Positions 21,605 through 59,005 of a stretch of 64,000 nt of DNA are shown here, one piece after another. The notes beneath the pieces are model-generated. The model saw nothing but the letters and a program-made list of their open reading frames with translations, was not told the DNA's origin and did no database searches. Location: assembly GCA_964036295.1 (NCBI GenBank), contig OZ038465.1, positions 23,470,870 through 23,534,869 of the forward strand, in the 5' to 3' direction. A program made the position numbers and the translations under genes. The stretch's first letter is position 1, and each line of letters opens with the position of its first letter. Source of the DNA: Plumapathes pennacea. Lineage: Eukaryota; Cnidaria; Anthozoa; Antipatharia; Myriopathidae.

Positions 21605-21970
<366 letters not shown>

Positions 21971-21983
21971 ATATATAAACATT

Positions 21984-22453
21984 AAACTACTTTTGGCGAG
22001 GAAATATGCACGGATAATTGTCCGAGGATATTATCTGTTCCGAGAAGCGAACAGTTGCCCGAGAGCGAAGCTCGAGGGCAACTGGAGGAACAGATAATGC
22101 CCAAGGACAATTATCTGTGCATATTTCCGAAGCCAAGAGTAGTTTATTGTCTTTATTATCCTTCAAATATTTCCTCTCGCAACACAAGTAATGGCGCGGG
22201 GACTGTGAAGCTTTTTGGTGCTTTCTGGAACTGCTTTTTCGACCAATAAATTGATATCCTCCTCGGTAGTCCATCTCGTAATGGGTTTTTGTGATTGATA
22301 TATAAAACTGTGTTCGGATATTGTCTATAAACAGCGTTTGTTCGCCAGGCGGGGGTTATTCGCTGATAACGTCCGCTCGTGAGCGGACGTTATTCGGTCA
22401 TGTGTCACGATTCCACCAATCACGCGCAGGGGGAAATATTTGATGGGTCATAA
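21984..22453. repeat. 450-bp inverted-repeat element, inverse copy
   Basis: This is the same element as the tandem pair at 17.5-18.43 kb, in the opposite orientation: it starts with the CAAAAGTAGTTTA-type hairpin side and ends AAATATTTGATGGGTCAT. It retains the CGCTCGTGAGCG palindrome. Confidence 0.85.
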
Positions 22454-22469
22454 ATTTATATAACAGATA

Positions 22470-22930
22470 ATAAGCAAGTACATAAATATAAGATAAACAT
22501 ATTTAAGTCGCACTCCTATATACACAGATAATAACAAAAGAAAAGGTTCTAGATCTAAAAGCCAAAAATAACATGTTATAGAGAAAACCATTGTTATAAA
22601 TAGTCCAATAGGGCGCGTTTAAAAGAAGCCAAACTTGCTACAGACATACTAAATTTGGAAGTGAGTTCCAGTCCGCAATTTGACGGTTGATAAAGAAAAT
22701 TTTAAAATAGTTGGTACGAAAGGCCTTAGGTCGGATTCTGTATTTCTGATTGCCACGTATACGTGAAGAACCTATCAGATCAAAACACTTGTCTGGGTTA
22801 ATATGTCACAGTATCCGAAAATTATTTTATACATTTCAATTAGGCAGAGGCATTTGCGCCTCAGTTCGAGAAAGATCCATTTGGTCTCATTCAGTCTCTC
22901 CTCGTGTTCGGGGATGTTGTGCCAACTGGT
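22470..22930 (-). pseudogene. LINE (non-LTR retrotransposon) ORF2 3' end, decayed
   Basis: On the minus strand, ERLNETKWIFLELRRKCLCL is followed by IEMYKIIFGYCDIL. After a frame change comes IRGNQKYRIRPKAFRTNYFK, then FINRQIADWNSLPN. This is the usual C-terminal tail of CR1/L2/RTE-like reverse transcriptase proteins (RRR.LCL.E.YKI.FG ... NxLP). Stops and at least one frameshift are present. It lies within the NUF2-like transcription unit, on the same strand. Confidence 0.6.
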
Positions 22931-23000
22931 TGCGTTCGTTTGTACAGGCCTTAAAGCTTCTTACTGTACCCAGTGTTGTCTACTTGTGACTGGTTCTTAC

Positions 23001-23069
23001 CTTTTGCATGATACTCTGTCTTTGCTCTTCAATCTGATGGATAAGTTCGTGAGTTTCCTGCATTTTCTT
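23001..23069 (-). CDS. NUF2: NUF2-like exon, distal coiled coil
   Basis: A 69-base, phase 0-0 exon preceded by GGTTCAG and followed by GTAAGA. It encodes 23 residues beginning KKMQETHELIHQIEEQ and ending SIMQK, a hydrophobic heptad pattern. No further downstream exon was found to the left, so the stop codon is unknown. Confidence 0.65.
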
Positions 23070-26000
23070 CTGAACCAGTAAATGATCTCTGTACACAAAT
23101 ATATCTGGTTACTTTATTTACTTAAAGTGTTTGTTAAAAAACGTTTGTGTACGGGATGTCGTAATGGAGATCACTGGTGTGATCTCACCAGTGCTCCCAC
23201 AACAATGTGACGATTTTGGATGGGGACATCCACTGAAATATGCCAACAGACGTTGGCCACTTTTTTTCCCTTCCTTTTCTTTTTTGTTTTTGATTTTGAT
23301 TTTGTTTTGTTTTGTTTTGCTTTTGCTTTTTGTTTGTAGGTGGAGCATAACGTTTTGCAAGGCAGAAGGAATGCCTGATCAATTTCGTATTTCCCATTGG
23401 GAACTATCAAATAAACATGGACAAGAATAAATAAAAAAGAGCACTATTGATTTACAAGTCAACACACCTTACCGAATGTTCCACCTCGTCATTGGTGGTG
23501 GTGATTTTCTTGTCGTGCTGTCTGGCAATACGAGAAAGCTTGTCTTTTTTAGACGCTACTTGCCCCCGTAATTGCTGTGATCGAAAAAAAAAAAAAAAAA
23601 GAAGCGTTCGCATCAGATTGTGTCCATTAATCAGGGCTAATTCAGCGAAGTATTTACAAGGTATTTTTACAAGTAGCCGACCAATTCCCCTTCAACTTAA
23701 GATCCAGATACTAAGCAACTTTGGTTATTTATAGAGCCGGCATTCTTGTCACAACAGCGTTCCCATTAGGCGTTGGGTTGTAGCCTCCAAAGTGTTAATT
23801 AGATTGCACCCAATAGTAATGAGTTTTTGGTCCTACGAAATGTTTGTCAACAGCATTATTGTTTTGACGTCTTAGAAGCCAAATTGAGAAAAGCAAGTAC
23901 AGTGACGGTAGAATCAAATTCCAAATCATTGTGAGTTCATTCGGCGGGCGCGCGTTATTTTACGACATGGCTGCTTGCTTTTCAAGGTGGAATTGGCTCA
24001 AAATAATCATTGGTGCGCGCTGAATGTAGTTCTTTTGTCGCGAGATCTGTGCCCAAATGATGGAAGAAAGGTTTGGTTTCGAGAGCTGGCAATGGATTTT
24101 TTCTTCGCCATATTTTATGTCTAAAGAGAGTGGTCGACAGGTAGCAACTTCGTAAAAATCGACGATCAGCCTCACCAATCGGCGAATTGTTGATACACTG
24201 GTAGACGAAAAGGGGCTCAAAGCGAAGGTAATACAAACTAATGTGCCACTTTAGAAACACGAGTGATCACGTCAGCGAGTCGACACACAACAAGTATAAA
24301 CGCAGGTAACGACCCTAATAGACGGCCGAATTGTAGGTTAGAAATGAAGATGAAAGAATTCTGAACATGTTATTCAATGTTCATGACTGAACTGGCTCGC
24401 CAAAAACCAAAAACCCGTCAAAAGTTGAATAACTCGCCAAAACCGGGCCGGAAGCCCGCCATTTTGCCGTCATAGGGCCGCACCCCTGCAGCAGAAAATT
24501 GTGCGCCTATAAGGCTACGTTTACACTATACCGGATAGCTTTCCGTAGCGTTGCAAAACAGTACCGGATAGGCCTTCCATTTACATTGGATACGCTGTTT
24601 TCGGAGCGAGTTTTGAAACGGAGCGCTGTTGCTCCACGGACCCGTATCGGATAGGAAAAAGCTCCGATTTGCATTGATTGATTGTGACAAAGCTGTTCCG
24701 GACAAGCCTTGTGTTTACACTGTACCGAACAGGTTTTTCGGCAAAAGTCGCTCCGGACCGATCTTTTCGTGTTTACATTGTACCGGATAGGTTTTCGCAA
24801 CGGCTCAGAATCCTATCCGGTATAGTGTAAACGTAGCCTAAGTTTTCAATTCTAACAGCAAAATTAAGATTAAGTAGGTATGGTTTCCCTCCTGTTTTGG
24901 GCGGCACGCCTGAAACAGAAAATAATTATTGGGTGTCACGCCTGGGATTCTGTGGCTAAAAGCATACTCTGCGCCTATAATTTCTAAATTCCAACAGCAA
25001 ACCTAAGTTTTGGTTTTCCCCCTGTTCTGGGCGGCACGTCTGGAGCAAGAAACGAATTATTGGGTGACACGCCTGAGATTCTATGGCTAAAAGCATACTC
25101 TGCGCTTATACTTTCTCAATTGTAACAGCAAACCTAAGGTATGGACTTCCCTCCTATTTTGGGCGGCACGCCTGAAGCAGAAACGAATTATTGGGTGACA
25201 CGCCTGAGATTCTGTGGCTAAAAACTTTATATTCTGCGCTTATAATTTCTCAATTCTAACAGCAAACCTAAGGTATGGTTTTCCCTCTTATTTTGGGCGG
25301 CACGCCTGGAGCAGAAACGAATTATTGGGTGACACGCCTGAGATTCTGTGGGTAAAAACTTTTTACTCTGCGCCTAAATCTCTAAATTCTAACAGAAAAA
25401 CTAAGTTATGTTTTGCCCTCCTGTTTTGGGCGGCACGCCTGAGATTCCGTGGGCAAAATATACTATACATCAATAATTTTGCATTGCTAATAGCAAAATA
25501 GTTTTCCTTTGGGTGACATATATGATGCAGAAAATAATATTATTGGGTGTTACCTGTCTTAAAAACAAAACTAACTGTGACACAGCGACAAGCGAGTTTG
25601 GGAAAACAACCGGAAAAAGGAGTGGGTCATGTATTTACTGAACGTGATATCCTAGTATGGATATAAACACCCAGGCGCGTCACATCTACTGTCTTAAACA
25701 TGCAAATGCCAGGCCGGAAGAAAGAAAACAAAAATAGTGAACAGGAAAACGGCACGGTTATAAGAACAAAATACCAGTTTTCTAAACTGGTGCGGCACGT
25801 TTGCAATCAGAACCGGATGACTACTTGGTGCTCCTGCGCTTGTTTACCACAGGAAACCAGTTCTCCAGAACTCTTCAAACAAAACTTATCAGCAATCATT
25901 TTCGTGCTTCGGTGCAAGTGTAGAATTGTGAACTGCGAGAGTAATTTTTTGTGAGGTTTAAAACATGAAACTAGTTTCTGAGCTTGTAAATAGAAGGCTG

Positions 26001-29000
26001 CCTCTTTGCTACGTCAAGGAGTTTAATAGTAAAATGAGCGGACGTGGACCAGGAACTTCAAACACCAAACAGCTTGTATTCGTACGAAACAATTTCATTC
26101 ACGTGACATTGTATTTTTTGAGTGAACACTTTATTACTACAGTGCAACACTTTCACGTACCCTCTCCTTTTTCCTTAATCAGAAGTGTGGCTCGAATCAC
26201 TTTTCGTTTTTGCTTCCAAGCTGAAATTTCCCATTTTAGTCTGCCGATCGCCAGCGGGTATTGGAACTGTCCTGGTGCTCACCCACTGTGAGAATTTTGC
26301 ATACCTTGAATATTTCATCACACTTTTTGGCCAAAATTACGTATCCTGCGGCGGCTGGGGCTCGTCATGTAAAGCCTGGTCCTCACTAGCGCATATAAGC
26401 ATAAGCACAAGTATAAGAATAAAAAAGCGACAGTGGCGACATAAGCATAAGCATAAGGAACGGACATGTTTGATCCTTATGCTTATGTCGCCACTGTCGC
26501 TTAAGGAATATTAAATGACCACATTTATAACGGAAACGGAAATGAAATTCGAAGAAAACCATACAAGTGCGGCTGTCAAATTTGATGAGAATTTGACGTT
26601 TGCAGCCAAGGTGAATCGTCGAGTCTGCAGCTAAAAAGTTTTTGTAGTTTAAATTCTTATTGATTTGTGAATGGTGAAGAGGATAACTGGTTGAGTTCTG
26701 CGGAAAGTAACATGGGGAAGTTAATGCAGAAAGTTTCTCGTAACTTGCTGCAACGGATGGCAACGAACAGAGTCGCTTGCAAAACTCGACATTGTCTTCT
26801 TCAAAGAAAGATAAATTCTCTTCGGAGCCAGAAATAATCTTTATGTAAGTCAGTAGTCTTTCAGGCCTGAATTCTCTAATTTCTCGTCTCCAAAGATGTA
26901 AATTTTAATTGCTTGTCGTTCTAGCAAAGCTTCCTGGGACTCTTAAGCCCTGGCCAAACGAGGTGCAAGTCAACACAAGTTCAAATTTTAATGCAAGTCG
27001 ACGCACGTTTTTCACCTAAAACAGCGAAGAGCGCGTTAGCAAAGGCAATTTTAAATAAAAAAATCAAAAGTAAAAGCCTCCTCATTAAGTTTCAGCTCAA
27101 GAGAGACTTTTTACTCGGTTTCTGACTCAAAACCGTCTATAAAAGAAAAAGTTTTTACAAAACTTGCATGAGCTTGCATCGACTTGCGTCTCGTTTGGTC
27201 ACCTTTTGCAAGTCGATGCAAATTTTTTTGCCATGTCGAACTTGCATCGACTTGCATCTCGTTTGGCCAGGGCTTTACATGACTACTTTCAAAATGGTGG
27301 CGGCGGTTACCGCCATTTTGTCTTGAATTCATGAATTCGCCGAGATGCGTATTGAGCTGAGTAGCAGGTAAGGCTTGCCGTTTAATTGATTGTTTTCTTC
27401 GACAGTACATAGTAAGACTGGTCAATTTTCGTAGACTTATGATGCATCCTCAAATAATTATAGTTTTGTCTTTCATCCCACTCGTTTTACTTGTTTCCTT
27501 TGGCTCCGCTGAAGTTGGTGGTTTCTTTTGTACTTTTCTATGACATTTGTTCACATAAATAAAAGAAAAGTGTAGATGGGGTCTGTATGCCCTAAGCTTG
27601 CAAGATTTATACTTTCAAATTTCTTGTTTACGATTTACGCACGGCATAAAATTTTGCCGATCGGTGCAGGTTTCAATGATCACAAAGTCCTGTAATAAAT
27701 GTCTTATTCACCGAGTTTGCTCGGGACCGTACTGGGAGAATATCGGCCCTCGGTCTTTATTGTAAGGACCTTGCTGCGCTCGGTCCGTACTGTCAAGACC
27801 TCGGGCCGATACTCCCCCACTACGGCCCTCGCACTCGGTCAATAAGATATATTTATTATATGACTGTGACGTGGTATTACCATATAAGCTCGCAACAAAG
27901 TGCCGGTACGGGAGCGTATTACACACTTTGGATCCGTATTAAACTGTAGAAAACCAGTTTGACTTTTTAGATGCTTGTCACGTAAAGCCAAAATGGCCGA
28001 TGAGAATAACGAGAACTGCTTTCCACTTCTTGACGACGACGACGACGACGACGAGCTAGGATTTGACGAACTTTTCGGTGGTAATAGTTTTGACGAATTA
28101 CTTACAGACGCTGCAGACTCGATGTGCGAAACTAACCTGAAAACTATGACAACAGAAACCAACCAGAACACCAATTTAACGCTACTCTTGACGACCGAGA
28201 CATTTCGACATTTATACAAGAGAACAAAAACAAAAACGCTGTAAAAAAAACGTGAACGTTCGTAAATAAAACGTAAACAATTTTTAGAAATGGGCTAAAA
28301 CAGTGAACGAGAGAAGACCTACTGACAAAATACCACCGAATGAACTGAGCAATCACTCGCGCATTTTGTTGGTAAAATTTGTAAACAAAGCGGCGAAGAA
28401 TTTGAACACAATACACTTACCTCATTTTTTCGGAGTTTTGATTGCTTTCTACGGGAACAGGGGAAACAGAACAAAACTGGCTGAACGAAATACAGTTCTC
28501 GAAGGCCAGTGAGGCCTTGGCAAGTAAACGAAAACAACTTCGCCGATCTGGTAAAGACCAAAGACGAAACATTCAAAGCAACAGCGGATGTTGATGTCCT
28601 TGACATTGAGCAAGCACGTGACGGGAGAACAAGCTCCTGCCGACAGAAAAGTTCTATAACCCTTGCCAACTGTCTCTAGCCACAACAAAGCAGCAAGCTT
28701 TCGGGAGCAACGCTCAGCAACAGGTTCTTTCACTTTTGGCAGTGAAAGGAAACTTGAAGAGAATCTGAAGAAACGGTTCAGACGAGTTCTCTCTTTTGAT
28801 AACAGTGACGAAGAACATTAGACAATACCGTTTGGTGGCGATCGGACTATGCAGAACACTTTTAGACACTGTCAGTACAAATTTCGTGCACCCTTTCTGC
28901 TTTTCAAGTTCGCTCTCGGATGTCAAACTTTGTCGATTTTGTCCAATCAGATTAAAGGCAGTAAATTGGCTTCCTCGTGAATCGTCATCACTGACTGGCT

Positions 29001-32000
29001 TTCGAATGTTCATCAGGGCAAATGAACGCAAAAATATCACAAGAAGAATGGAAAACAGGGTAAAAAGACAGTCATATAATAAATCCCTCATTCGATGGTT
29101 TAGCGCGTCAAACGGGCCGGCATTTTAAGCCCTGTTTACATGGAGGGAGGGTAACCCTCCAAGGAGGGACACCCTCCAAGAAGGGTCAGAAGATAGCCCC
29201 TCTTTACATGCCAAGCGTTATCCCTAGGGTTATCTTGCCAAGAGTCTAAAAGGAATCGCGCGGTCGCAAAATTTGAGATAGTAACCTGGCACCGCTAAAA
29301 TTAGCCCCCCTGGGAGGGAAACCCTAGCAAGAAGATAAGGTAACCCTCCTCCTAGGGTGACCCTACCGATCATGTAAACGGAACAAGGAATTTCAATGGA
29401 GAAGAGTGACCCTTCTAGGAGGGTGTCCCTCCTCGGAGGGTTACCCTCCTTCCATGTAAACAGGGCCTTACTCGTTACTCGCATTTTTCCTCGCCCCGTG
29501 GCAACTCGTTAAATACCGGCCCGTATCACGCGCTAAACCATTTAATAAAATGTATTTATTACACGACTTCACATTTTCGAGTGGAAATACAGGCCAAAAC
29601 GAATGCAAAGATGGGAGCGTATTGCAATCGTCAGGAACCAGATCAACTAGTTTATTAGCTTACGTGATCAATTTTCGCAAGCAAAGTTTACGAACGCGTC
29701 ATTTTTTTGTTCCATTTTGCTCGCGGCGAGAATATTTGCCCTGCTTCGTTTGTCGTATAATAAACAGTTTATTACACGAAAAGTCGTGCAATACGGCTGT
29801 ATTTTTACTCGTCAGTTTCATTTTTTCTCGCCTGAAACAGGCTCGAAAAAATAAAACCGACTTGCAAAAGTACTCCGGCGTATTGCACACCTCTCCGTGT
29901 AATAACCTCTTTAAAATACATGCGTGTAAATGGTTATTGAATTGAGTGTTTCTGTCAGTACATTTGCAGTGTGATTTACCTCAACTTTGGCGGTCAGATC
30001 ACGCAGCAGTTCTTTCTGAGCCATGTTGCGATCTTGGAGCTCTTCCTGCTTTGTGTTCGCCTCGCTAAAAAGAAAACAAAATAAAAACAATGTGCAGATG
30101 ATTCAGTTCAGGTGCCTGAACATTACTTCATTTCAGGCTCTTAGTTTTCCCAGTTTATTTGACTTCTCCGCTATACTCCGCGAATTTCTTACAAACAGCG
30201 ACACCTTCGTCAGGTTTGAGTCGATTTCCTACGCTTGAATTCCTGAGTTTATACGGTTGCTTTGGGAATCTCCTACACTTTACTACCATTTTCTGGATGC
30301 AAAATAGTGCTCGTGACATCCTTGCGTTGTTGTGACGGATACCAAAATGTGCGTAAATATCAGACAAATAACTGCTTGCGACTATAAACCTGCGTGCAAA
30401 CTAACTGTAGCTGTGTAAAGTGATAAACAAAAATATATATTGCGTTGAAGTTCGACAGTAATCTAAGTGATCCCAGCTAAAATCTCCTCGCCAGTGGCAT
30501 GCCTTTGTATTGGAGTTTGCTATCCACTGCCTTCACTTTACTAAAGATGACTACAGGCGGCCGAAACGTCAGTCACCAACAACAGTATATCTTGAGATCA
30601 CTATCACCCACTCAGACGATCACACTAGGTGAACAACTAATACTCCTGGGACTGTTGGATACCACGAAATACACTCGTGACGTCACGTACTTTAGTCAAC
30701 GTTCGTCGGCATAACTGTGTAACTCGTCCAGCACGAGGGAAAATTTCACCTCGTGTGCAAGCCTCGTTTTTCTTGTGCACACTTATGTTATAGGAAACGT
30801 ATTGAACTAACTTGTAGTCGAGTATTAAGTCCTGGTTTACTTTTTCTTGGCTAAGTCTTGAGGTTTGACGAACGTTACACTGAACAACAAAATCTGCACA
30901 TCATATACAGTTTTGTGAAATAACCGCTGACTTAAAAAAGGTCACCGCACGACCAAAAAGCGTATATCGGTGTGCCATTGCTGTGTTACTTACCTCCGTG
31001 TACTGGAGCCTGCTATCCTGCTGATCACATAACTCTAGCAGCCGTTTAGTTCTCTCCTCTTTAGCGGTTTTGAGGGACTGGACGGCACTGTTGAGTCGGG
31101 TGACTTCTCCCTTGAATCGTTCTGGAGATTGGACAATCTTGGATTTTAGATTCTCGTTGTCTGCTTTCAATGTCGCCAGGTTCACTTTCATCTGAGCCTG
31201 ATCAATGGCAGAAGTCAGTCAGTCACAAGACAAATTCTCACACACAAGTATAGAGTACAAACTTATTTTGATATATTTATAATAAAGCACTTTGGCCCGA
31301 GTCAGTGAAAGTTGCATCTACGAAATCCTGGTCCTCTTAATGAAATACATTGCTTTTTTACAAATAGAACATACCGTTTTCGAGTTCAACTCCGCGTTAG
31401 TAGTCTTAATTTGTTGGAGACGTCTCATTTCGGCTGCCTGGAAAGAAAAACCAAAATATCTTAACAAGCATGTGGTTGTTGGAATGAAATCAGCAGGTCT
31501 AATTTAATTGGTATTTGCACATCAAGCTCTAGTATTTTCTTCCATATTATTCATATTACCAGATGGCTGGAGCTACTTCCGGTGAAATCGCGCGCTCTGA
31601 TTGGTGTATTTGCCGGTCATTATTTTCTTGTAACGCCCGTATTCTCGATTACGGACCGGCAGATTGAACACATGAATCACGAGGTCGTGCAGTTCTTTGC
31701 TTTCAGTGAATATGTCGGCTACGTTTGGCTGAAGGCAAAGTTGTAGAACAAGAATATGTAAGAAAAAAATACCACCGCGGAAACTACTTTGCAAGCCGAG
31801 AAAACGGTTGGAGATGGAGATTTGCTGACTTGGTTTGTGGCATCACGAACGGCGACTCGAGCACCGTATTCTGAGAATTGGTTCACAGCTTGCACTACGT
31901 GCTAAACACTTAGAGCAACGTAGAAGGCACAGAAAACTTTAGTCAAAGAGTGACGTGAACAATCTTAATGAGTTCACCGTTTGCGGAGCTACGAGCAGAC

Positions 32001-35000
32001 TGATTATTTGTTGTCACGGTGCCGCAAGCGGAGTTCATACAAGCTTACTGAAACTGTACGTATGGCATTTTAAGAGTGTGAACGCCATTTCATTTCAACA
32101 TCTTTGAAGACTTGAGTGAAGGAACTTATCTTTCTGTTGAGAAAATGATAAACTTTTGATTCAAACTATTTTCTTTGCCGACGGTTGAGATACGAAATAT
32201 TCTAGTTTCTTCAGTATTTCCTTTGTCTGAATCCCGGTGTCACAGCGGATTTTATCCCCCCGCGAATTTTATCCCCCGTGGCCGACCAACCACGACCACG
32301 ACCGACCGTTAACGCTTCGCTGTCGAGTATATTGAATCCGCTAGCGAGACAATGTGACAAACATAAAGAGAACTATGTTTGCAAGTGTCAAGTGAAAAGG
32401 TTCAAACCTGTGAGAGCTTTCGAAATCGATGTGTGTGGCCGACCGTGGCCGTCCAGCCACGACCCCGACCGACCGTTAAAGGGAATGGCGTACGGCTATG
32501 CCTATTGTTAAAAAACAATCTTTGTTTCAAGTCTCTAATGTGCTTTGCATCCAAATACATGATAAATTTCAAGACACGGCTTCTAAGACCTTTGAACGCT
32601 TCGCTGTTGAGTATGAGTTAGGGGATAAAGTCCGCGAGAGGGGGATAGAATCCGCTAGCGGATATTATCCGGGAGGGACTAAATCCGCTAGCGGATTCTA
32701 TCCGGGGGGATAAAATCTGCTAGGACACCTGAGCTTGAATGTTGTGATCGCATGTTATATACTAGAAATACGATAATCGCAGATATCCCCTCGCTCTGTA
32801 GTGGGTTTCTGAAAAGCAGGGTTCTTGTTATTTTCCGCTTGGAGATTAAGCCTGGTCCTCACTAGCGCATAACAATAAGCATAAGCATAAGCACAAGCAT
32901 AAACATAAGAATAAGAGAGCGACAGTGGCGACATAAGCATAAGCATAAGGAACGGACATGTTTGATCCTTATGCTTATGTCGCCACTGTCGCTTAAGGAA
33001 TATTAAATGACCACATTTATAACGGAAACGGAAATGAAATTCGAAGAAAACCATACAAGTGTGGCTGTCAAATTTGATGAGCATTTGACCTTTGCAGCCA
33101 AGGTGGATCGTCAAGTCTGCAGTTAAAAAGTTTTGTAGTTCAAATTCTTCTTATTGACTTGTGAATGGTGAAGAGGATAACTGGTTGAGTTCTGCGGAAA
33201 GTAACATGGGGAAGTTAATGCAGAAAGTTTCTCGTAACTTGCTGAAACGGATGGCAACGAACAGAGTCGCTCGCAAAACTCGACATTGTCTTCTTCAAAG
33301 TTAAGCGAAAGATAAGTTCTCTTCGGAGCCAGAAATAATCTTCATGTAGGTCAGTAGTCTTTCAGGCCTGAATTCTCTAATTTCTCGTCTCCAAAGATGT
33401 AAATTTTAATTGCTTGTCGTTCCAGCAAAGCTTCAGGGGACTCTTAAGCCCTGGCCAAACGAGGTGCAAGTCAACGCAAGTCGATGCAAGTTTTCAAACT
33501 TGCGCGGACTTGCGTTTCGTTTGGCCACCAACTTGCACGGACTTGCATCGACTTGCATGGAATTTGAACATCTTCAAATTTTCATGCAAGTCGACGCACG
33601 TTTTTCACCTAAAACAGCGAAGAGCGCGTTAGCAAAGGCAAGTCTAAATCAAAAAAATCAAAAGTAAAAGCCTCCTCATTAAGTTTCAGCTGAAGAGAGA
33701 CTTTTTACTCGGTTTCTGACTCAAAACCGTCTAAAAAAGAAAAAGTTTTTACAAAACTTGCATGAGCTTGCATCGACTTGCGTCTCGTTTGGCCACCTTT
33801 TGCAAGTCGATGTAAATTTTTTTGTCATGTCGAACTTGCATCGACTTGCATCTCGTTTGGCCAGGGCTTTACATGAATACTTTCAAAATGGTGGCGGCGG
33901 TTACCGCCATTTTGTCTTGAATTCATGAATTCGCCGAGATGCGTATAGAGCTGAGTAGCAGGTAAGGATTGCCGTTTCATTGTTTGTTTTCTTCGACAGT
34001 ACATAGTAAGACTGGTCAATTTTCGTAGACTTATGATGCACCCGCAAATAATTGTAGTTTTTGTCTTTCATCCCACTCGTTTTACTTCTTTCCTTTGGCT
34101 CCGCTGAAGTTGGTGGTTTCTTTTTTACTTTTCTATTACATTTTGTTTACATAAATAAAAGAAAAGTGTAGAACGGATCGGTATGCCCTAAGCTTGCAAT
34201 ATTTATACTCTGAAATTTCTTGTTTACAATTTACGCACGGCATAAAATTTTGCCGATCGGTGCGGGTTTCAATGATCACAAAGTCCTGTAATAAATGTCT
34301 TATTCACCGAGTTTGCCCGGGACCGTACTGGGAGAATATCGGCCCTCGGTCTTTATTGTAGGGACCTTGCTGCGCTCGTACTGTCAAGACCTCGGGCCGA
34401 TATTCTCCCAGTACGGCCCTCGCACTCGGTCAATAAGATATATTTATTATATGACTGTGACGTGGTATTACCATATAAGCTCGCAACAGAGTGCCGGTAC
34501 GGGAGCGTATTACACACTTTAGATCCGTATTAAACTGTAGAAAACCAGTTTGACTTTTTAGATGCTTGTCACGCAAAGCCAAAATGGCCGATGAGAATAA
34601 CGAGAACTGCTTTCCACTTCCTGACGACGACAACGAGTGACGAACTTTTCGGTGGTAATAGTTTTGACGAATTACTTACAGACGCTGCAGACTCGATGCG
34701 CGAAACTAACCTGAAAACTATGACAACAGAAACCAACCAGAAAACCAATTTAACGCTACTCGTGACGACCGAGACATTTCGACATTTATACAAGAGAACA
34801 AAAACAAAACACTGTAAAAAAACGTGAACGTTCGTAAATAAAACGTAAATAATTTTTAGAAATGGGCTAAAACAGTGAACGAGAGAAGACCTACTGACAA
34901 AATACCACCGAAAGAACTGAGCAATCACTCGCGCATTTTGTTGGTAAAATTTGTAAACAAAGCGGCGAAGAATTTGAACCCGATACACTTACCTCATTTT

Positions 35001-38000
35001 TTCGGAGTTTTGATTGCTTTCTACGGGCACAGGGGAAACAGAACAAAACTGGCTGAACGACATACAGTTCTCGAAGGCCAGTGAGGCCTTGGCAAGTAAA
35101 CGAAAACAACTTCGCCGATATGGTAAAGGCCAAAGACGAAACATTCAAAGCAACAGCAGATGTTGATGTCCTTGACATTGAGCAAGCACGTGACGGGAGA
35201 ACAAGCTCCTGCCGACAGAAAAGTTCTATAACCCTTGCCAACTGTCTATAGCCACAACAAAGCAGCAACCTTTCGGGAGCAACGCTCAGTAACAGGTTCT
35301 TTCACTTTTGGCAGTGAAAGGAAACTTGAAGAGAACCTGAAGAAACGGTTCAGACGAGTTCTCTCTTTTGATAACAGTGACGAAGAACTTTAGACAATAC
35401 CGTTTGGTGGCAATCGGACTATGCGGAACACTTTTAGACACTGTCAGTACAAATTTCGTGCACCCTTTCTGCTTTTCAAGTTCGCTCTCGGATGTCAAAC
35501 TTTGTCGATTTTGTCCAATCACATTAAAGCTTCCGCGTGAATCGTCATGGCTTTCGAATGTTCATCAGGGCAAATGAATGCAAAAAATATCACAAGAAGA
35601 ATGGAAAACAGGCTAAAAAAACCAGTCATATAATAAATCCCTCAGTCGATGGTTTAGCGCGTAATACGGGCCGGCATTTTAGGCCCTGCTTACATGGAGG
35701 GAGGGTAACCCTCCAAGGAGGGACACCCTCCAAGAAGGGTCAGAAGATAGCCCCCCTTTACATGCCAAGCGTTATCCCTAGGGTTATCTCGCCAAGAGTC
35801 TGAAAGGAATCGCGCGGTCGCAAAAATTGAGATAGCATCCTGGCACCACTAAACTTAGCCCCCCTGGGAGGGTAACCCTCCCTCGAGTGTTTACATGGCC
35901 AAAAGCTGTCCCTACTGGGAGGGAAACCCTAGCAAGAAGATAGGGTAACCCTCCTCCTAGGGTGACCCTACCGATCATGTAAACGGAACAAGGAATTTCA
36001 ATAGAGAAGAGTGACCCTTCTAGGAGGGTGTCCCTCCTGGGAGGGTTACCCTCCTTCCATGTAAACAGGGCCTTACTCGTTACTCGCATTTTTCCTCGCC
36101 CCTTGGCAACTCGTTAAATACCGGCCCGTATCACGCGCTAAACCATTTAATAAGATGTATTTATTACACGACTTCACATTTTCGAGTGGAAATACAGGCC
36201 AAAACGAATGCAAAGATGGGAGCGTATTGCAATCGTCAGGAACCAGATCAACTAGTTTATTAGCTTACGTGATCAATTTTCGCAAGCAAAGTTTACGAAC
36301 GCGTCATTTTTTTGTTCCATTTTGCGCGCGGCGAGAATATTTGCCCTGCTTCGTTTGTCGTATAATAAACAATTTATTACACGAAAAGTCGTGCAATACG
36401 GCTGTATTTTTACTCGTCAGTTTCATTTTTTCTCGCCTGAAACAGGCTCGAAAAAATAAAACCGACTCGCAAAAATACTCCGCCGTATTGCACATCTCTC
36501 CGTGTAATAACCTCTTTAAAATACATCCGTGTAAATGGTTATTGAATTGAGTGTTTCTGTCAGCACATTTGCAGTGTGGTTTACCTCAACTTTGGCGGTC
36601 AGATCACGCAGCAGTTCTTTCTGAGCCATGTTGCGATCTTGGAGCTCTTCCTGCTTTGTGGTCGCCTCGCTAAAAAGAAAGCAAAATAAAAACAATGAGC
36701 AGATGATTCCGTTCAGGTGCCTGAACATTACTTCATTTCAGGCTCTTAGTTTTTACAGTTCATTTGACTTCTCCGCTACAGTTTACACTTTACTACTGAA
36801 TACGAAATTTCGTTCCAAGCGATCTGGCAGTGTTCATACTTGCTCTTTTCCTTCCCCTTCCTTTCCATCATGCTTCATGCCATTCTTGGTGACTAAGTAG
36901 CTCTTGCGGTTCAACGAGTCCAAAAGCAGGGGAAAGCAGACAGAAAAACTCGGACAAACCTCAGATATAGAAGCTATGAAGCGGTGCCGAGCCGAAACGC
37001 GCAACTCCTCTAAAGTCACAGGTCCCAGTCTCCCATTTTGCACGGCCGGGATTTTATATTTCCGATTTCAACCGCGTGAAAAAAGTATAGGAACGCTTTG
37101 GAACATTCTTTTGGGCATAAATTGCTCAGATCACTTCCTAATTTCGTATAAAAATGTAAAACCTGACGGCTTATGCGCACTTTAACGTTTTGGCACACTA
37201 AGTCAAAATATAGAAGTATTGTGCTCAGCCAATCATAATTGAGCATTTTTGCACCTCTATTAGAAATGATCGACGAATAAAAATGTAATCGAATGTAAAA
37301 TTCGTTTATTCGTGGCTTCTAAAATAACCAGAAAACTACCGTATTTTCAGCTGCCTGGAATGAGCTGGGATACTAAATAAATAAATAAAATATGCTGACA
37401 AGTAAGACATGTATGATGACCTTCAAACACGCAGTTACCGCTGCTTTTCGATGCCATCACCAATTGCACAAATCATCTTCAAGCGTTCTGTACATACTGT
37501 GAATTGAAAAAACATCAGGTTACGACACAATCAAAGTGAACTTTCTATCAGTAAATATCAGACAAAAGAACTGCTTGCGACTATAAACCCTCGTGCAAAC
37601 TAATTGTAGCTGTGTAAAACGGTAAACAAAAAGATATATTGCGTTGAAGTTCGGCAGTAATCTAAATGATCCTAGCTAAAATCTCATCGCCAGAGGCATG
37701 TTTTTGTATTGGAGTTTGCTATCCACTGCCTTCACTTTACTAAAGATGACTACAGGCGGCCAAAACGTCAGTCACCAACAACAGTATATCTTGAGATCAC
37801 TATCACCCACTCAGACGATCACACTAGGTGAACAACTAATACTCCTGGGACTCTTGGATACCACGAAAATACACTCGTCACGTCACGTACTTTGGTCAAC
37901 GTTCGTCGGCATAACTGTGTAACTCGTCCAGCACGAGGGAAAATTTCACCTCGTGTGCAAGCCTCGTTTTTCTTGTACACACTTATGTTATAGGAAACGT

Positions 38001-41000
38001 ATTGAACTAACTTGTAGTCGAGTATTAAGTCCTGGTTTACTTTTTCTTGGCTAAGTCTTGAGGTTTTACGAACGTTACACTGAACAACAAAATTTGTACA
38101 TGCATATACAGTTTTGTGACATGACCGCTGACTTAAAAAAGGTCACCACACGACCAAAAAGCGTATATCGGTGTGCCATTGCTGTGTTACTTACCTCCGT
38201 GTACTGGAGCCTGCTATCCTGCTGATCACATAACTCTAGCAGCCGTTCAGTTCTCTCCTCTTTAGCGGTTTTGAGGGACTGGACGGCACTGTTGAGTCGG
38301 GTGACTTCTCCCTTGAATCGTTCTGGAAATTGGACAATCTTGGATTTTAGATTCTCGTTGCCTGCTTTCAGTGTCGCCAAGTTGACTTTCATCTGAGCCT
38401 GATCAATGGCAGAAGTCAGTCAGTCACAAGATAAATTCTCACACACAATTATAGAGTACAGACTTATTATGATATATTTATAATAAAACACTTTGGCCCG
38501 AGTTACTGAAAGCTGCATCTTCGAAATCCTGGTCCTCTTAATGGAGTACATTGCTTATCTACAAATAGGACATACCTTTTTCGAGTTCAACTCCGCGTTA
38601 GTAGTCTTAATTTGCTGGAGACGTCTCATTTCGGCTGCCTGTAAAGAAAACCCAAATATCTTAAGAAACATGTGGTTGTTGGAATGAAGTCAGCAGGTAT
38701 AATTTAATTTGTATTTGTACATCAAGCTCTAGTGTTTCCTTCCATGATTCATATTATTATATGGCTGGTCGGAGCTACTTCCGGTGAAATCGCGCGCTCT
38801 GACTGGTGTATTTGCCGGTCATTATTTTCCTGTAACGCCCGTGTGCTCGATTACGGACCGGCAGATTGAACACATAAATAGGTATTTTTCAGAATTGCGG
38901 GGGCGGGGGAGGGGGATTGGTACGAGCGCCTGAAAGACGCGAGGGAAAAATTTTGAAATCTAGTTTCCCTGAAATGGCATTTCCTTCATTTTCGTGGTAG
39001 TTTTTAGCCAAATTTAAGCAGTTTAAATCGGTCTTTTGTAATAGCCAGGCAGCCGTGAGAAATTGGTCCGTAGGCGAGAGTTGGCGTGAGATCGAAGTTT
39101 TCGACTCGCAGGCGTGGGAATTGGCATGTATATGTGTGTGTGGCCGACCGTGGCCGACCAGCCACGACCCCGACCGACCGTTAAAGGGAATGGCGTACGG
39201 CTATGCCTATTGTTAAAAAAACAATCTTTGTTTCAAGTCTCTAATGTGCTTTGCATCCAACTACATGATAAATTTCAAGCGAAGCGCCTCGTGGATCCAC
39301 AACTTTTTGACAATGTTATGACGCGTTTCATGATCAATAAGAGGACAGACACATAAAAAACTGACGTCAATTTGTTAAATGGCTGAGTTTCTGAGCGGGC
39401 CATACGCGCGAAATGGCGCGTTCTGATTGGTTGTCTGAGCGGCAACATTTTCCTGTACGGCCCGCTCAGATTCAGTTTGCACATGTGGTTCGCAAATGAT
39501 TACTCGAATAGTTGCTAAACGTTTGCCATAGAAGGCCCAGAAGTTCAATGGGAGGTTTGAACGTTCCGGATACTCACTGTTAAGTTGTGATGCCCGGGAA
39601 AAGCTTACAATCTGGAAAAATTTACAGTTACGAAGAAGGAAAACATCCGACGAAAAATTTGCTTGCATCCTCAGCCGTCATTGACAACAAGTGCTGCAGA
39701 TCTATGGAGGGTTGCTTTACCTCTGTGCTGAAATTCGCACACTTGCCAGGAAGAAAGTGGAAGGCGAACAATCACCGTGAACAGTTATGACTAAAACCGT
39801 GCAGAAATCAAGTTTTGCAGACATGTTTGCTCGTCTGGCGCACTGTGAAGACTGTAAATATATTTTTCACAAAGCACCAGAACTCTCTATATTTCGAAAT
39901 CACTGACTGGGACAAAGACACCGTGGTGATCTAAGGATGTTTAGTTTGCTGGAAAAAACCTAAACGCTCCACGAGGAGGCAGGAAAATTAATCGGTGAGT
40001 TTTGAATAATATAACTTTCAACATGTATCGGTCGCGGTGTGTGATGAAATGATTTTCCTTTAGTGTCATTTTGCCTTCTACATTATTGTGTGTGTAAGAA
40101 ACTTAATATTCAAAAGAATAAAATATACTCTGAGTTCTAAAGCAGTTTCTTCTGTAGAAAGATAAGACTGCAGATTTTTTAAAGCTTTAGTGAACGAGCA
40201 ACTGCTCGAGGGCGAGTTCGTTTCAAGTGTTGTTGTTTGACACACGCTGTCGGCCATTTTATTCAGCTCAGAACAATTGGGATTTATTTAGGCGGTTGGT
40301 TCGGCAGATGCTTTTTTTCTTTGAAGATTTTCAAATCGGTGGAATTGTAAGCTGTTAACTGAAATTTTTTGTGAAAACAAACGTGCGTAATTCATGCCTG
40401 ATCGTGATTGATGTTGTTAACTGAACGAGACGAGTACTCCTCGGGAACGTGTTTTATGTTTGCCGAAAGATTTATATAATAAATATCTTATTAACCTCGT
40501 TTGCTTGGTCCGTACCGTAAGTTATGGATCCTCGTTTTTTTTTTAACTTACTGTACGGACCGCGCGCTCGGTTAATAAGATCTATATATTTACTAGAAAA
40601 AGGAACAATATAGTTTACAGTATCTTACTTAGTTACATATGTATTATATTAGAGAGTTTAAGAAACCTAGGACGGTGACGGCAACGCGAGGAACAAAAAA
40701 AGTGTCTGTTTTTCCTATTGCTTATTCTTAGGTTGCTTAATTTGTTGCGTTTTTGCCGAGGTTCTATTGACTTCATCGTTTCCTACTAAGAAGAACGGCT
40801 ACCGTTATTTAATCGAACTGTCGTCCGTCCTGAAAACGACGTAAAAAAAAAACAAGCATTTGAAGTCGCACGCGAGAGCACAGCGACCCCGAGAACATGT
40901 CAATTTCAGATATTCACGTCTTCTTTTGTCTTCTGTTATTATGGGTTTTATTGTTTCACCGATATTGCCGTCGTCCTCTCGCATCCTGTATCTTAAAGTC

Positions 41001-44000
41001 CCTAACATGTCATAAGTTGCCTGTTGTTTGTTTAGTTCATTCACACTGGACTGCAACTCCTCCACTTCTGAGGCAAACTGTCAACATCAAAACATAAAAG
41101 TCCAACTCAAGGTTTCAAATTCCTATCAGTGGGCATTGGGAAGGCACTATTTAACACCCACCAAAACCATGTGAGCCGAAATTAAATAATTTACTGTCAG
41201 CGGTCATGACGTCAAGTCTAAGCAACATGGCGGCAGAGGCGAGCAATGTCACGAACTTGCTTGCAGCGCTTTGCAGTGAATGATACTCTTGTAGTGCAAG
41301 TAAATAAAGTGAGTCTTAAGACAATTTTCATTACATAGAGTATATTTTTATCGGGTTGTTCTCCGTTCCTGCACAACCATGAACATGGTTCTGAAGGTCG
41401 TTATCTATTTACGTAACTACAGTAAAAAGTAAATAACATGCGCCAAAACCATGTAAGCTGAAAATTTAAAAAAAATGGCCTTCTGTAAATTCATGGAGCA
41501 CAAATTGGATTTTGCCGTTTCACCTTTTGACTGGGAAATGACTTTACAGCCCTAAAATGAATGGATTTCGTTTAACGATCTCTGCTACTTCACCAGAAAA
41601 TAGGAGACATATCCAACTGAGAACTGCGAATTAAAAATAACAGACCTAAATAGGATGCAGATTAAAGTAAATAAGAGAAAGGAAATCTTGTTCTGTCAAA
41701 ATCGATTGTCGAATTGCCGTACATCTGTATGTAATTTGAACTGCTTACTTTCCCGGGTCTTCAAGCTATTGCGCGTGCTTCTTTAAAAGAATAAGTATAG
41801 CGAACGCTTTGGAAGACTGTGCTACTATTCCGGAGCTGTGGGTAGAAAAATTCGATGTATCCTTCGATCCTTTCAATGGTTTATACACTTCAACGCTCGA
41901 GAAAGCACTGGAACTCATTAGAGTGTATGAGATAGCGACTACTTCTCGTTATGCTGCAAGCAAAGACTTCGGAATGTCTGGTAAGTGGCCTGAACATATA
42001 AAAGCTCAATCTAGAAATAAATGGGAAACATGCATGTACAGTAAGTGTAAGTATAAATACAAGATGACCAGAGATGTGCTAAAATAAACACCTAATCTCT
42101 GTTTGGCTTTATCTAACAAGAATTTGTTTATATTGACATTTTAAAATGGCCAGCTCAAAGGTTTCTTTGTCACATAGGTAAGGCCGGGGGAATAGTTTAT
42201 TATATACATTGCAAAGGACCATTCCTTATTTATGAAATAGGCCGGGTGTGGAAAAATTAACAAAGGACAAAATTCACAAAGTCCCCCCTTCCTCTCAAAG
42301 TCCATATTAAAAAGCAATGACCCCCCCCCACACAAACACACACACACACACACACTTTGTTTATTAATTTTCAATAACAGTTGCACTCTGTGTAATTTAA
42401 CAATAACTAACTACTCAGCATAATATTGACGAAAAATATGCACATGACCAACCCCTACCCCCCCCCCCCCCCCCCAGTCGGTACAGATGTACAGATGGTC
42501 TTGGTATAGAGTTTGATGGGATTCCATTCATGATCATTGGGAAGAAAGTTCTGGAGTGCCACCATGGTCCAAATAGGAACAATATCTCAAAAGCAAAGCT
42601 GGCAAAAGAGAGAAGTAAATTGTTGCAGAAAATAAAATCATATATGATTTTATACTAGACAATCTTTTTAAAGCAACATCACTTATCTTTCATACCATCA
42701 GTGTTTATTCCTTACAAAGTATCAAAAAAAAAAATTAATACAGTATTCTAAACAGAGTGAAAAGTAGTCAAAATCATAAAGCAAAATGCCTTATGTCTAC
42801 ACAACTGCATAGCACATATTGTCTAGAACTGCTGAAGTCTGGTATCTTCTTATTTAGAAATAACTATAACTGGTATTGAGATGTGTAACATTAAAGTTTT
42901 GTCTAACAGGTAAATGAACAAAGTGACCATGCCTTCTTCAGGTGCAAGACACCAAGAAGTATGATTGCCCAGCAAAGATATACATAAAAACCTAACATAA
43001 CCCCAACCACCTAGTAGAGAGAAGAATCTCTGATGTGGCTTTTACAGAAAGGCAGTCTGCACTTCAACTTAAGTCAAGAGCGACCAACAGGATCTTGCTG
43101 TTTGTAACACAATACCAGCCGTCAGTGTACAACTAAGAAATTTTAATGAAACACTGGCATCTAATACAAAACCAACCTTTATTGAAAACGATATTCATGG
43201 AACCCCCTATAATATCTTTTAAGAGAGGCAAATCCCTTAAAGACATGCTCGTCAGAGCAAAAATATGAAGGCACCAAAAATACATTCACAACTGGAGTTG
43301 TGTAGGTCTGTCAGCCCCCCCTCTCTATTCAGCATTGGAACCTGCATGACAGCCCAATCCACTGAGCAAACATCATCATGGAACTCGTCAGTGAGGGGAA
43401 GGCAAGAGGGGATCAAACATGCATTCATGTGTGAGCAGAGCACACACATTAACATTTCTGTTTAGAATAGTTAACTTAGTCAGAACTATATTGATTTCTT
43501 ATCTGATTGAGACAGAATTGGAACTGGGAATTATATAATTCATATAGAAGGTTTTGTCATGATGTAGTACATGGCCATCAAAATCTGTGATATTAATGTT
43601 CTCAATGCCATTTATAAAATCTGTTCTTTTTGCTTCAAATAGGTGGTCAAGATGTGTATTTTTGTCAGTCAATGGCAGTGACAGAAAGTGCAAAGTGACT
43701 TTAAGTTTAAAATTTTGCAGCAACAATGATGAAGTTTGATGGGCAGTTGCTAAAACACCCCATATGTATTACTATTTACTGCCAGTTTACATGGACCAGT
43801 AATCGGCATTATGATTACAACAACTTATTTTTAGCGCACGCTAAATGGTTTTGGCGGATGTTATTTACACCATTCACCAGGGTAAAGAGTAAATAACATC
43901 AACCGAAACCACGTACAGTAGCTTACGCTGGAAATAAACTAGTTGTAGTCATGATGCCAATTTCCAGCCAAAAGGTGAATCGGTAAAATTCAGTTTGTGC

Positions 44001-47000
44001 TTCCATAGATTAACAGAAGGCCATCTTGTTTTTTTTAATTTTTAGCTCACATGGTTTTGGCGGATGTTATTTACTTTTTACTGTAGTTACGTAGATAGAT
44101 AACGACCTTCAGAACCATGTTCATGGTTGTGCAGGAATGGAGAACAATCCGATAAAAATATACTCTAAGTAATGACAACAGCGTGAAAAGTGTCTTAAGA
44201 TTGACTTTACTCACGTTAACACTATAAGAGTATCATTCACCACAAAGTACCGCAGATCGTGACAAGCTCGCCTCAGCCGCCATGTTGGTTAGACTTGACG
44301 TCATGACCGCTGACAGCAAATTTTCAATTTCGGCTCACATGGTTTTGGTGGGTGTTAAATAGTGCCTTCCTGGGCATTGTTGGTGCCTCCATAAATAGAA
44401 TTCTCAGAGCTGGGTCTAAGATTGCAATTTATAATTACTGGTTCTCTATGGCACATGAATACCATTCCAATGAAGGCTGTCAGAGACGACTAATGTCAAA
44501 TATGTTAGTACTGCAGGTCTCAATAAAGATAATTCGTGAATCCCTCTCAAGGCAGTGTAGGGTTATGACTGTGTATGTACACCTGCACCTTTTAAAGTAC
44601 ATACATGAAAGTCCGAAAAGTGAATTAAAACAAGGAAAAGTAAAAAAAAACTCGTTGTCTACACCTCACGAAAACTTCAGCGATATTGACCAATCTCTCA
44701 AACATTTTAGCTCCTGAAAAACCTAATTTTTCGCCAAAATCAAGCCCGATAAAATTTTTTTTCGTCTTACAGAATGTGGGGCCCAACACAATTACATGCT
44801 AAAACGTCCCCGTTACCGGTCCGAATAAAAGTGTGCATTACAATCGAATTTAGAAATATGTGGAAATGGATTTAACAAATGGGCCATACTAACACTTGTA
44901 ACTAATCAGAAATCAATGTAGTTTTCGTTCGTGTTAAGGCCGTCTTCTGATTGATTTCGTTTTGCGTTTGCTACTCTCTCCGATTGGTAGAAACAGGTTT
45001 AAGAACATTCTTGGCCAATCAAGATTAAAAACAAAACCTGGTTCCGATATTGTCCCGCAAGAAATCAAGTGGCGATGGCATGTTCTCTCACTGCTTATTG
45101 GTTAGTAGTACTCTTTTAGGATGACTGTCAAAAACCAAAACCAAAGCAATCGCAGAGCCAAGCAACAACAATGAAACATCAGTTTTCTTTAGAACTGAAA
45201 TAGTTGTATTGTACTTCACAGAGAGTTACCAACCTGTCTAGCTATGTACTAGTCTTCTGCTCTTTTGTCCCTAAAAAATAAAAGCACTTCTTAATGAACT
45301 GACCATGAAATAATTAGATGAATAAGTGATAGATAAAATATAAGCGACCAATCTTCATAAGCATTTACAATGGCAAGTCGCTTGTGAAATGAAAGAGTGA
45401 CTGGAATGTAAATCATTGTTCTGTACAGATCTTTATGAAAAATTATGCATGCTAATCAGCACGGCAACAAATCTTTATCAAAAGTTGATATACTGATTAA
45501 TAGTTCATCCGATAAAAAATTGGCAAGAAATACAACCCAACACTTTTTGCACATATGCACTGGTAAACCCATTTGTAGTTTCACTTGCAAAAAGAGAGAG
45601 GTTTCAACTGGAAGTGATGTACAGTGTATGCAACTATTGTTAGAATGTCAACAATAAACTTTTTATCATTTTTTATAAGCCATTTTCCCCCTCGCTCTAT
45701 ACTTTCTGCTGGTTAATTAATATTGGTGTTTGGTGCAGTTGCGAGGTCACCAGTCGGTCACTAAAACAAATCACAAAGAAAAATACAAGTGATAGATAAA
45801 AAAATACAAGTAAAAAATAGAGGAACGACAAAGAATGACTGTGGGGAGGCTACACAGTGTATGTATTATTCATATTGTTGTGGAATATAGTAACATCTTT
45901 TAAGGGACCGCTACTTTGGTTGGGGGGGGGGATGGTTCCTTTCGGGGTAGGAGGGTGTTACTTTGGAATTCTACAGCATGTACAGTGAACAGAAATATAT
46001 AATCCATCTATGATCAGATTTACCACACAGTACATTGCAAAAATAAAATATGTACATAAAGTCAAACAGTAAGTGAAAGTTGACTACACTGTAACTGAGA
46101 AATATAGTGTACATGATCTGAGTTTGTAAAACTAATTTGTGTGAAATTCAGTTTGAGTAGGTAGAAATTAAGGAGTTCCAACATACCACTTCTGCCACTG
46201 CATTGTCAAAAAGGAAAGCACAGGATTCCTTAGACATGACAAAATTCCAGGATAGCACTGCAAAAGTTTAGCAAATAAATCTTTAGAGGAGAGAAAAACC
46301 ATAGATACTGTACTGTACAAATAATAAAGAATTGCAATTCCCCTTACCTTACACACACAAGAGTATGCTTTGGTTCTGTTAGGAAATAAAGAATATGCTG
46401 CTAGTACCACTGAGATTAACACAAAAAAAGTAATCATCAACAATACTATCACCTTAACCTGCAGATATACACCTGTTCCCATCGTGGTGCTTCCTAGAAG
46501 TGTTCGGATGGGGAACGGCTGTATCCACAGGCTACTAAAATCTACAGTTGAAGCTCTTGTAGGCCACCCCCTTGGGGGCTAGAAAAAAATGGTGGTAACT
46601 AGAACTGGTTGATTACAAGAGTGGTCACTAGCAAGGAGAGCTTTGACTTTATAATCTACAATGAATGCAGCTTACTTGGAGCAAGAATATCCATGATGGT
46701 GAATTTTGCAACATTCAAACATGAACCTCTTTCTGTATGGAAGATACAGTATATAATTATATTATGTTAGACATTCAAAACAAAAAGAAATTGTGAATCC
46801 AGCATAGAATCAGATAACTTTTCACTTACATCTTGTAAAAAACAAAAATAGCAAATTCTCTGAGTCTTCTATGCAACGATCACTTATCTTGTGGTAGTCT
46901 TCCACAGTTAAAACTCACAGAAAATTGTGACATAGTGGGCATAGCTATAATGAATGTCTATACATGAAAAAGGTAGAATTTTATTACTGTCACATTTGAA

Positions 47001-56099: not shown

Positions 56100-57878
56100 C
56101 AACTAGACTGGCTTTGCCAGTGAGCTCGCGGCGTGAGTTGGGTCGAGACCAGAATATAAAATGGAAAGTAGGGGACAAGAGCGGAACTCCCAAGAGAGAC
56201 TTCCAATTTCTCACCATAAAAATATCACACAGTATAGAGAACTTGGCTTTTGACACCTTGCTCTTTTGACACCTTGATTAAACTAAAAATTATTATTACA
56301 ACACTCATACACTTGCTTCTTAAAGGTTGAGCGACCCTGCATCTTGAGAATGCGTGACATATCTTTTTATGCACAATCGATTTTGACAGTTTGACCTTGA
56401 CTCATATTTCTAATCAGAGGCCACGATTAATCCAGCCTTCGCTTCACTACTTATGTGTTTTCTTTTCTTAACTCAATACGTTTCTTCTATCAGGCTTTCG
56501 AGTATTCGTGCTCTGTAACAAATATAAAATTGAAAGCGAGGAATGTCACACGAGAGATGTTTACAATATTATTGCGCTTTTGTTCAGTGTGTTCAGTCCA
56601 TTTGTGACTGCAAACTCAATCCTCAGAATTATTTCGGTGTATTTTTCATTTCTGGTATTTAATGAACATTGCGAAACAAAGACTACATGATCGAATGAAA
56701 GAAACACTTCAACAGGCAATGTACGATACGCAGAAGAATTTTATGAGGCAACAGATGTCATGTAAAGAGTAAGGCATAAAGCGTCATTGTTTTACGGCTA
56801 AAGCTCACCGTAGCTTTGGTTTCTGTTTTCGCCCTGTTATCTTCCCAAAAGTATTTCGTGTCGCCACAGAAAGTTTCGTCGGGACTAAATACTTATCGGC
56901 GACAGAGATATTTGCAATACCCCAGAAGTACCATCAAACATTTGTTTACGGCTATTCTCAAAGCTTGTGCGGTGAACGCGAGCCAAAATCTTTTCCTAAA
57001 ATCCAGTTTATCCATGCCTATTCCACAGAGCCAAATGGCGTTGAATTTGAATGGGATGCAGTTTACTTTTTCGCTTCACTACTTATATGTTTTCTTTTAT
57101 TAACTCAATACGTTTCTTTCTATCAGGTATTCGAGTATTCGTGCTCTGTAAGAAATATAAAATTGACAGCGAGGAATGTCACACGAGAGATGTTTACAAT
57201 ATTATTGCGCTTTTGTTCACAGTGTGTTCAGTCCATTTGTGACTGCAAACTCAATCCTCAGAATTATTTCAGTGTATTTTTCATTTCTGGTATTCACTGA
57301 CCATTGCGAAACAAAGGCTACATGATCGAATGAAAGAAACACTTCAACAGGCAATGTACGATACGCAGAAGAATTTTATGAGGCAACAGATGTCATGTAC
57401 AGAGTAAAGCATAAAGCGTCATTGTTTTACGGCTAAAGCTCACCGTAGCTTTGGTTTCTGCTTTCGCCCTGTTATCTTCCCAAAAGTATTTCGTGTAACC
57501 ACAGAAAGTTTCGTCGGGACTAAATATTTATCGGCGACACCGGTACCATCAAATATTTGTTTACGGCTATTCTCAAAGCTTCCGCGGTGAACGCGAGCCA
57601 AAATCGTTCCCGAAAATCCAGTTTATCCGTGCCTATTCCACGGAGCCAAATGGTGTTGAGTTTGGATGGGATGCAGTTAACTTTTACACACAAGTAACGA
57701 GCAATTCACTGGCCACATCTCGAGTTGTTTAGCGAAGTCAATTACGTCATCGCCCAGCACGTGATAATATGAACCAATCACCGTGTGCTGATCCTCGACC
57801 CACAAAAAGGAAAAAAAAAAAAATTAAAATCTCCATTTTTAAGCTCTCGTGGGCCCCAGGCCCCCGCGAGCAATAAGT
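56100..57878 (+). repeat. 635-bp family composite repeat, second locus
   Basis: It matches 3754-6212 from the leader (CTGGCTTTGCCAGTGAGCTC) to the tail (GGGCCCCAGGCCCCCGCGAG) but has fewer internal units. Satellite sequence lies on both sides, so this copy is inserted into the satellite array. The two loci therefore define the element's ends at about CTAGACTGGC (left) and CCCGCGAGCAATAA (right). Confidence 0.85.
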
Positions 57879-57879
57879 A

Positions 57880-58355: not shown

Positions 58356-58690
58356 TCAATCTCTCGTTCAAGTGAGAAAACGACATTAACTTGACGTGTT
58401 CAAAAATAATATTCCAACTGCTTCTATAGAAATAAAAAATACTTCTTGAGGGCATTGTAGTCTGATATTTTAGTGAGCGGCTGCATTTTAAACATCGTTA
58501 ATAACACGTCCGTTGCTACAAAAGCCAAGCGCAATCTTCTCAATAAAACGCAGGAAAAAAGATCTTTAAGTTCTGGTTTTCGTTCTGCGAGGACATTTAG
58601 CGGATTGTCAATCTTCACCTTAGGGACTCGCATCTCGGAACATGCTGCCAAATCCTTGTTTTCAAAACGAAACTACCTTCTCGGGATATA
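58356..58690. other. Unique stretch between opposed satellite blocks
   Basis: No repeat monomer is visible. Minus-strand frame 58424-58651 and forward frame 58473-58823 are open, but no domain was recognised (VATKAKRNLLNKTQEKRSLS on the forward strand). It lies at the point where satellite orientation flips. Confidence 0.35.
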
Positions 58691-59004: not shown

Positions 59005-59005
59005 G

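Follow-up and report, generated by a model that had tools for sequence, protein, structure and literature searches.

The window analysed here, 64,000 nucleotides of contig C4 (OZ038465.1) of Plumapathes pennacea (C4:23470870-23534869; genome position is window position plus 23470869), contains a doubled block of three coiled-coil exons of the kinetochore gene NUF2, and this doubling very probably reflects decayed segmental copies of NUF2 rather than a NUF2 protein with a lengthened coil. NUF2 would have been amplified locally by repeated segmental duplication into about 14 units of one orientation within C4:21.6-25.9 Mb, and the three-exon coil block would have been copied again within many of the units. 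U1 (C4:21.635-21.657 Mb), at the low edge of this array, is the probable parent and is predicted to be an expressed gene; the doubled coil set of the window unit (U5) would be a by-product of exchange between repeats, presumably unequal, in a copy that can probably no longer make NUF2. Exons were assigned to these putative units by position. The genome searches covered 290 Mb in 24 contigs, and because the search program scores only the best candidates, every count of genome matches below is to be read as at least that number.

Comparison of the window with itself by BLAST aligned three pairs of segments in direct orientation: 26372-26980 with 32848-33481 (92.6% identity), 26980-30173 with 33573-36778 (93.9%) and 30353-31677 with 37551-38879 (94.2%), a likeness far beyond chance. 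The direct repeat described in the sequence-only reading was recovered at 92.6-94.2% identity:

26372..31677, no strand assigned: repeat block copy 1, from self-alignment
32848..38879, no strand assigned: repeat block copy 2, from self-alignment

With indels included, the two blocks diverge by about 6-7%, and they carry the claimed coding differences (SPERF in one, FPERF in the other), so they are not identical duplicates made by the assembler. The count of two copies holds within the window; genome-wide the block is present many times, with 36 copies of its 204-nt exon. Each window block holds on the minus strand an exon e1 of 63 nt, an exon e2 of 204 nt and an exon e3 of 81 nt, all of phase 0-0, open and with GT donors, placed by exon reading as follows:

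38576..38638, minus strand: coil exon e1, second (upstream) set
38195..38398, minus strand: coil exon e2, second set, FPERF type
36585..36665, minus strand: coil exon e3, second set; in-frame acceptor GAG behind TAG
31375..31437, minus strand: coil exon e1, first (downstream) set
30994..31197, minus strand: coil exon e2, first set, SPERF type
29980..30060, minus strand: coil exon e3, first set; in-frame acceptor GAG behind TAG

The earlier description of these exons as in phase, open and intact at their splice sites stands for phase, frame and donors, but the e3 acceptor is weak: the site that keeps the frame is a GAG that follows a TAG by 4 nt, and use of the TAG would lead to a stop. This arrangement is common to all 32 e3 copies in the array, with the first AG in a TAG in 29 of them and in a CAG in three.

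The identification of these exons as NUF2 coil exons was borne out by protein matches and by the head of the gene in U1. Exons e1-e3, joined, match human Nuf2 in PDB (9n9g_F) at phmmer E 8.8e-5; the joined exons of U1 match it at E 1.1e-5, with the coil at 167-279, in agreement with a NUF2 coil that carries a KIVxSPE-type stretch after the CH domain. A genome search with the NUF2 profile PF03800 gave no match at E 0.001, likely because the CH domain is split over short exons; at E 10 one CH exon was found at 11 places, all in the array. With a NUF2 head consensus as query, four CH exons (N1-N4) were located in several units. Joined, N1-N4 of U1 match PF03800 over profile positions 2-107 of 141 (E 5.3e-19, 69.3 bits, cut-off 25), which identifies an N-terminal CH (Nuf2) domain in U1 and indicates that the array is made up of intron-bearing NUF2 copies of several exons each. 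In the stretches read, neither profile positions 108-141, the end of the CH domain, nor the C-terminal part of NUF2, which binds Spc24/Spc25, was found; a fifth CH exon sought by eye in U3 was not recognised, and a PF18595 search gave no match in the array and 14 weak matches elsewhere. Pfam applied to window 38.4-48.0 kb, with stops as X, found no match at E 10, a false negative, as this interval includes e0 (a further coil exon, below), N4 and N3. Window 26737-26874 matched the NUF2 consensus at E 0.011, which was left as chance; Pfam found nothing at that place.

The window holds one NUF2 unit, U5, on the minus strand from about 48.8 to 30.0 kb. Its upstream exons, at 41.0 and 46.7-48.8 kb, are absent from the sequence-only reading:

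48682..48800, minus strand: N1, first coding exon, with a 1-nt deletion relative to U1 (exon reading)
48132..48206, minus strand: N2, 75 nt, open, AG/GT (exon reading)
47191..47273, minus strand: N3, 83 nt, open, AG/GT (exon reading)
46676..46732, minus strand: N4, last exon of the CH-domain part recovered, with a 5-nt deletion that breaks the frame (exon reading)
41021..41077, minus strand: e0, 57-nt coil exon, open, donor GC instead of GT (partial genome match and exon reading)

These are followed by the second coil set (38638-36585) and then the first (31437-29980). In the copy at 21.638 Mb, e0 is placed upstream of e1; the U1 version of this exon reads LASEVEELQSSVNELNKQQ. The surroundings of e0 gave 13 full-length and four partial genome matches, all in the array, and one of the partial matches covers the e0 of the window. 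A 69-nt exon before e0, em1, whose donor is a candidate, was found in U1 and U3; it was not found in U4, U5 or U6, the search for U5 covering the 134 kb that begin with the window. When N1 of the window is read from the start codon of U1, a stop follows after 10 codons. The CH domain of U5 is thus represented by N1-N3 and a frame-broken N4, and no single frame runs open from it into the coil, given the 5-nt deletion in N4, the missing em1 and the GC donor of e0. These lesions, together with the base lost from N1, tell against the claim that 116 residues have been added to a working NUF2 coil, as does the existence of about 14 units, among them a U1 in which all readable exons are intact and the coil set is single. 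As the doubled set lies in a copy probably unable to make NUF2, neither a loop nor a matching change in the partner NDC80, which the sequence-only reading had offered as options beside alternative exon choice, is needed; NDC80 (PF03801) matched the genome at one place only, in two adjoining exon-sized stretches at C1:20.563-20.565 Mb.

The array was delimited with several queries. A 301-base e2 query gave 38 matches, comprising 36 copies and two 32-base fragments that lie beside two of them and were excluded from the copy count. All 36 copies are on C4:21.6-25.9 Mb, within 4.3 Mb and on the same strand, as are all 105 matches of a coil protein query. Exon copies collected in the array number 37 for e1, 36 for e2 and 32 for e3; this collection looked at one strand, and the common orientation rests on the e2 DNA query and the protein query. 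The first-exon search gave 20 matches, 14 of them covering N1, all in the array, and every match of an N1-N4 protein query was there as well (51 of 51). Human NUF2, searched at E 10, gave 40 matches, of which 30 are e2 copies of the array (best E 0.009); the 10 outside it were rejected as chance coiled-coil matches (14-16% identity, E 0.075 or weaker).

Flanking DNA was copied along with the exons, as the following segment illustrates:

21684..36778, no strand assigned: 15-kb segment including the junction of the two blocks, found also at C4:22759729-22774857 (98.3%)

This alignment of 15,150 bases spans introns and intergenic DNA, and the part of the segment from 24881 on is found again at C4:22821303-22833231 (97.6%). 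The block junction itself recurs at C4:22769548-22771070 and 22827920-22829442, each at 96.7%; the segments that hold these two occurrences are 99% alike to one another. In a tree, the two copies in the window fall into separate clades, both supported. The 15-kb segment common to other units also contains a tandem array of a 131-base unit (24876-25442, 4.3 copies).

U1 is open in all of N1-N4, em1, e0, e1, e2 and e3, and the nearest further e2 is 118 kb away. It was read from 21635360 upward with the exception of 21648900-21654599. Another unit, at 21.755 Mb, was considered as a possible parent and dropped, most of its e1 being lost. Heads were read in U1, U3, U4, U5 and U6, the remaining units being known from search matches. 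N1 of U6 (23.58 Mb) carries two separate 1-nt deletions. U4 (22.87 Mb), whose start is gone, has gained 4 nt in N1 and lacks 4 nt at N4. In U3 (22.79 Mb), one base is missing from N1 and 4 nt are inserted at N3; either lesion might be bypassed, but both e2 copies of this unit are broken. Among the 36 e2 copies, 15 are open at 204 nt and 21 are broken (10 by stops, 10 by frame-shifting indels and one by truncation); in 13 of 36, both e1 and e2 are open and bordered by AG and GT.

Some observations run counter to a reading of the window unit and its relatives as decayed copies of U1. The two coil sets of U5, joined in order, are open throughout, and the frame of N1 can be regained from an ATG further upstream that lies in the shifted frame, so the 1-nt loss alone need not be fatal; read from that ATG, U5 is NUF2-like through N3 and its frame is lost inside N4. 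The e3 of U1 has the same doubtful acceptor as the other copies, and the last part of the CH domain and the C-terminal exons were unseen in the stretches of U1 that were read. N1 is open from the start methionine in seven of 14 copies, U1 included, and further units besides U1 may therefore work. The pattern of substitution in the coil exons belongs here too. Distinct changes in e1 and e2 of 35 copies are 31 amino-acid, 19 silent and four stop changes, where random draws with transitions weighted twofold are expected to give about 70, 25 and 5%. This count leaves out the copy truncated at 25078500, the tail of which lacks homology, and the e1 exons of 21755249 and 24965928; with the truncated copy, 36 copies give 38, 23 and five. 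The ratio of amino-acid to silent change per site (pN/pS) is 0.44 for the 35 copies; the 22 that are not fully open give 0.53 and the 13 open ones 0.29, a value biased downward because these copies were picked for openness.

The evidence on coding constraint is mixed: the 21 broken e2 copies of 36 and the 16 amino-acid versus seven silent changes in the head exons of four copies point to lost constraint, while the 31:19 ratio and the pN/pS of 0.44 (0.53 in copies not fully open) suggest that some constraint acts or once acted. The branch that separates U1 from the four copies carries two silent changes and one amino-acid change, too few to use. Introns diverge by 7.2% among all copies and by 6.1% among the open ones. 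Constraint is relaxed and its absence is not demonstrated; these data would suit either past constraint on common ancestors or a small number of working copies.

Expression of U5 would yield a NUF2-like product in which a second coil set adds 116 residues, and which would be either full length or coil-only from a start downstream of the broken CH exons. Its seven coil exons (e0-e1-e2-e3-e1-e2-e3) do join into one open frame of 251 codons, and the upstream ATG of N1 and the pN/pS of open copies, albeit chosen for openness, would suit such a product; it is nonetheless very unlikely, given the N4 deletion between CH domain and coil, the missing em1, the GC donor of e0, the weak e3 acceptor and the fact that each other unit with more than one coil set, as grouped by position, has at least one broken e2. 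That several NUF2 units work, with extra coil sets skipped in phase so that the locus offers alternative coil choices, is also unlikely, if less strikingly so. U7 (C4:24.19-24.21 Mb) shows matches to N1, N2, N3 and N4 as well as e0, and carries a coil set with a stop followed by one that is open; the phase 0-0 coil exons, the open N1 copies and a pN/pS below 1 are in keeping with such a locus. U7 is seen only in part, however, all of U3-U6, whose heads were read, are frame-broken in the head or in e2, and more than half of the e2 copies are broken.

The sequence-only reading had also raised a tandem-allele assembly error. An artefact that placed two alleles or a repeat in tandem is very unlikely at this junction, even in a highly repetitive region of similar tandem copies, where a stretch of 3.3-3.6 kb and its counterpart 3 Mb away share 99.4-99.6% identity. 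The window blocks differ by about 6-7%, with indels, and belong to different supported clades; the same junction is assembled at two other places, albeit within segments 99% alike, so the error would have had to recur. Decayed segmental copies remain the favoured account of the doubling. Regarding the stretches 3 Mb apart, the three-copy coil groups at C4:25.885-25.907 and 22.826-22.849 Mb have the same spacing to within 8 bases, and their 99.4-99.6% identity where compared reflects either very recent copying or a matter of assembly. Copies in the array cluster near 22.8, 23.5, 24.25, 25.06 and 25.8 Mb, about 0.7 Mb apart, a spacing that may hint at a larger repeat unit.

Clusters of unprocessed pseudogenes in segmental duplications are a known kind of locus, and the array resembles them in that its copies keep introns and flanks, share one orientation and carry many frame-breaking lesions. 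It differs in being large, with about 14 units and 36 coil blocks of a kinetochore gene in 4.3 Mb, and in a constraint that is relaxed without being demonstrably absent. Set against NUF2 itself, U1 agrees in its N1-N4 head and its joined coil, whereas in the window copy one CH exon is broken and the coil block is doubled. A report on Caenorhabditis describes centromeric and kinetochore gene duplicates that are short-lived and then degenerate or are lost (PMC9577544); those arose independently across species, in contrast to the one local array with many damaged copies seen here. In the accessible portions of the literature on NUF2 and kinetochore gene duplication, pseudogenes and coral genomes, no report of such an array was found. 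Decaying kinetochore-gene duplicates are thus a known kind, and the size of this case is notable.

A frame-preserving exon repeat in a damaged copy can mimic a new protein design, and the two can be told apart only by reading the remainder of the gene and of the genome. The array is a large amplification of a kinetochore gene in one orientation beside its probable parent, with NDC80 found at a single place, and in expression studies reads of the parent and the copies would mix. Arrays of segregation genes are candidates for drive; on abnormal chromosome 10 of maize, amplified kinesin genes bias their own transmission. By analogy, it is conceivable, at very long odds, that certain units continue to produce NUF2 variants carrying no, one or several additional coil blocks in phase, that the outcome is Ndc80 complexes of unequal length or coil fragments acting as dominant negatives, and that the locus could thereby bias its own transmission.

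Elsewhere in the window, an open reading frame of 357 codons on the minus strand (62431-63504) has no Pfam match at E 0.01. Another, of 409 codons on the minus strand (12652-13881), matches DUF3504 (45.3 bits, cut-off 29.7) and Phage_integrase (31.2 bits, cut-off 27.1) and looks like a mobile-element gene for a tyrosine recombinase. At 1-6151 and 56101-57876, a unit of about 635 bases is repeated in tandem; it occurs also at several places in the neighbouring DNA in both orientations. It is followed at 57872-61044 by tandem arrays of an approximately 107-base unit, with 70-86% matches, that are partly inverted relative to one another.

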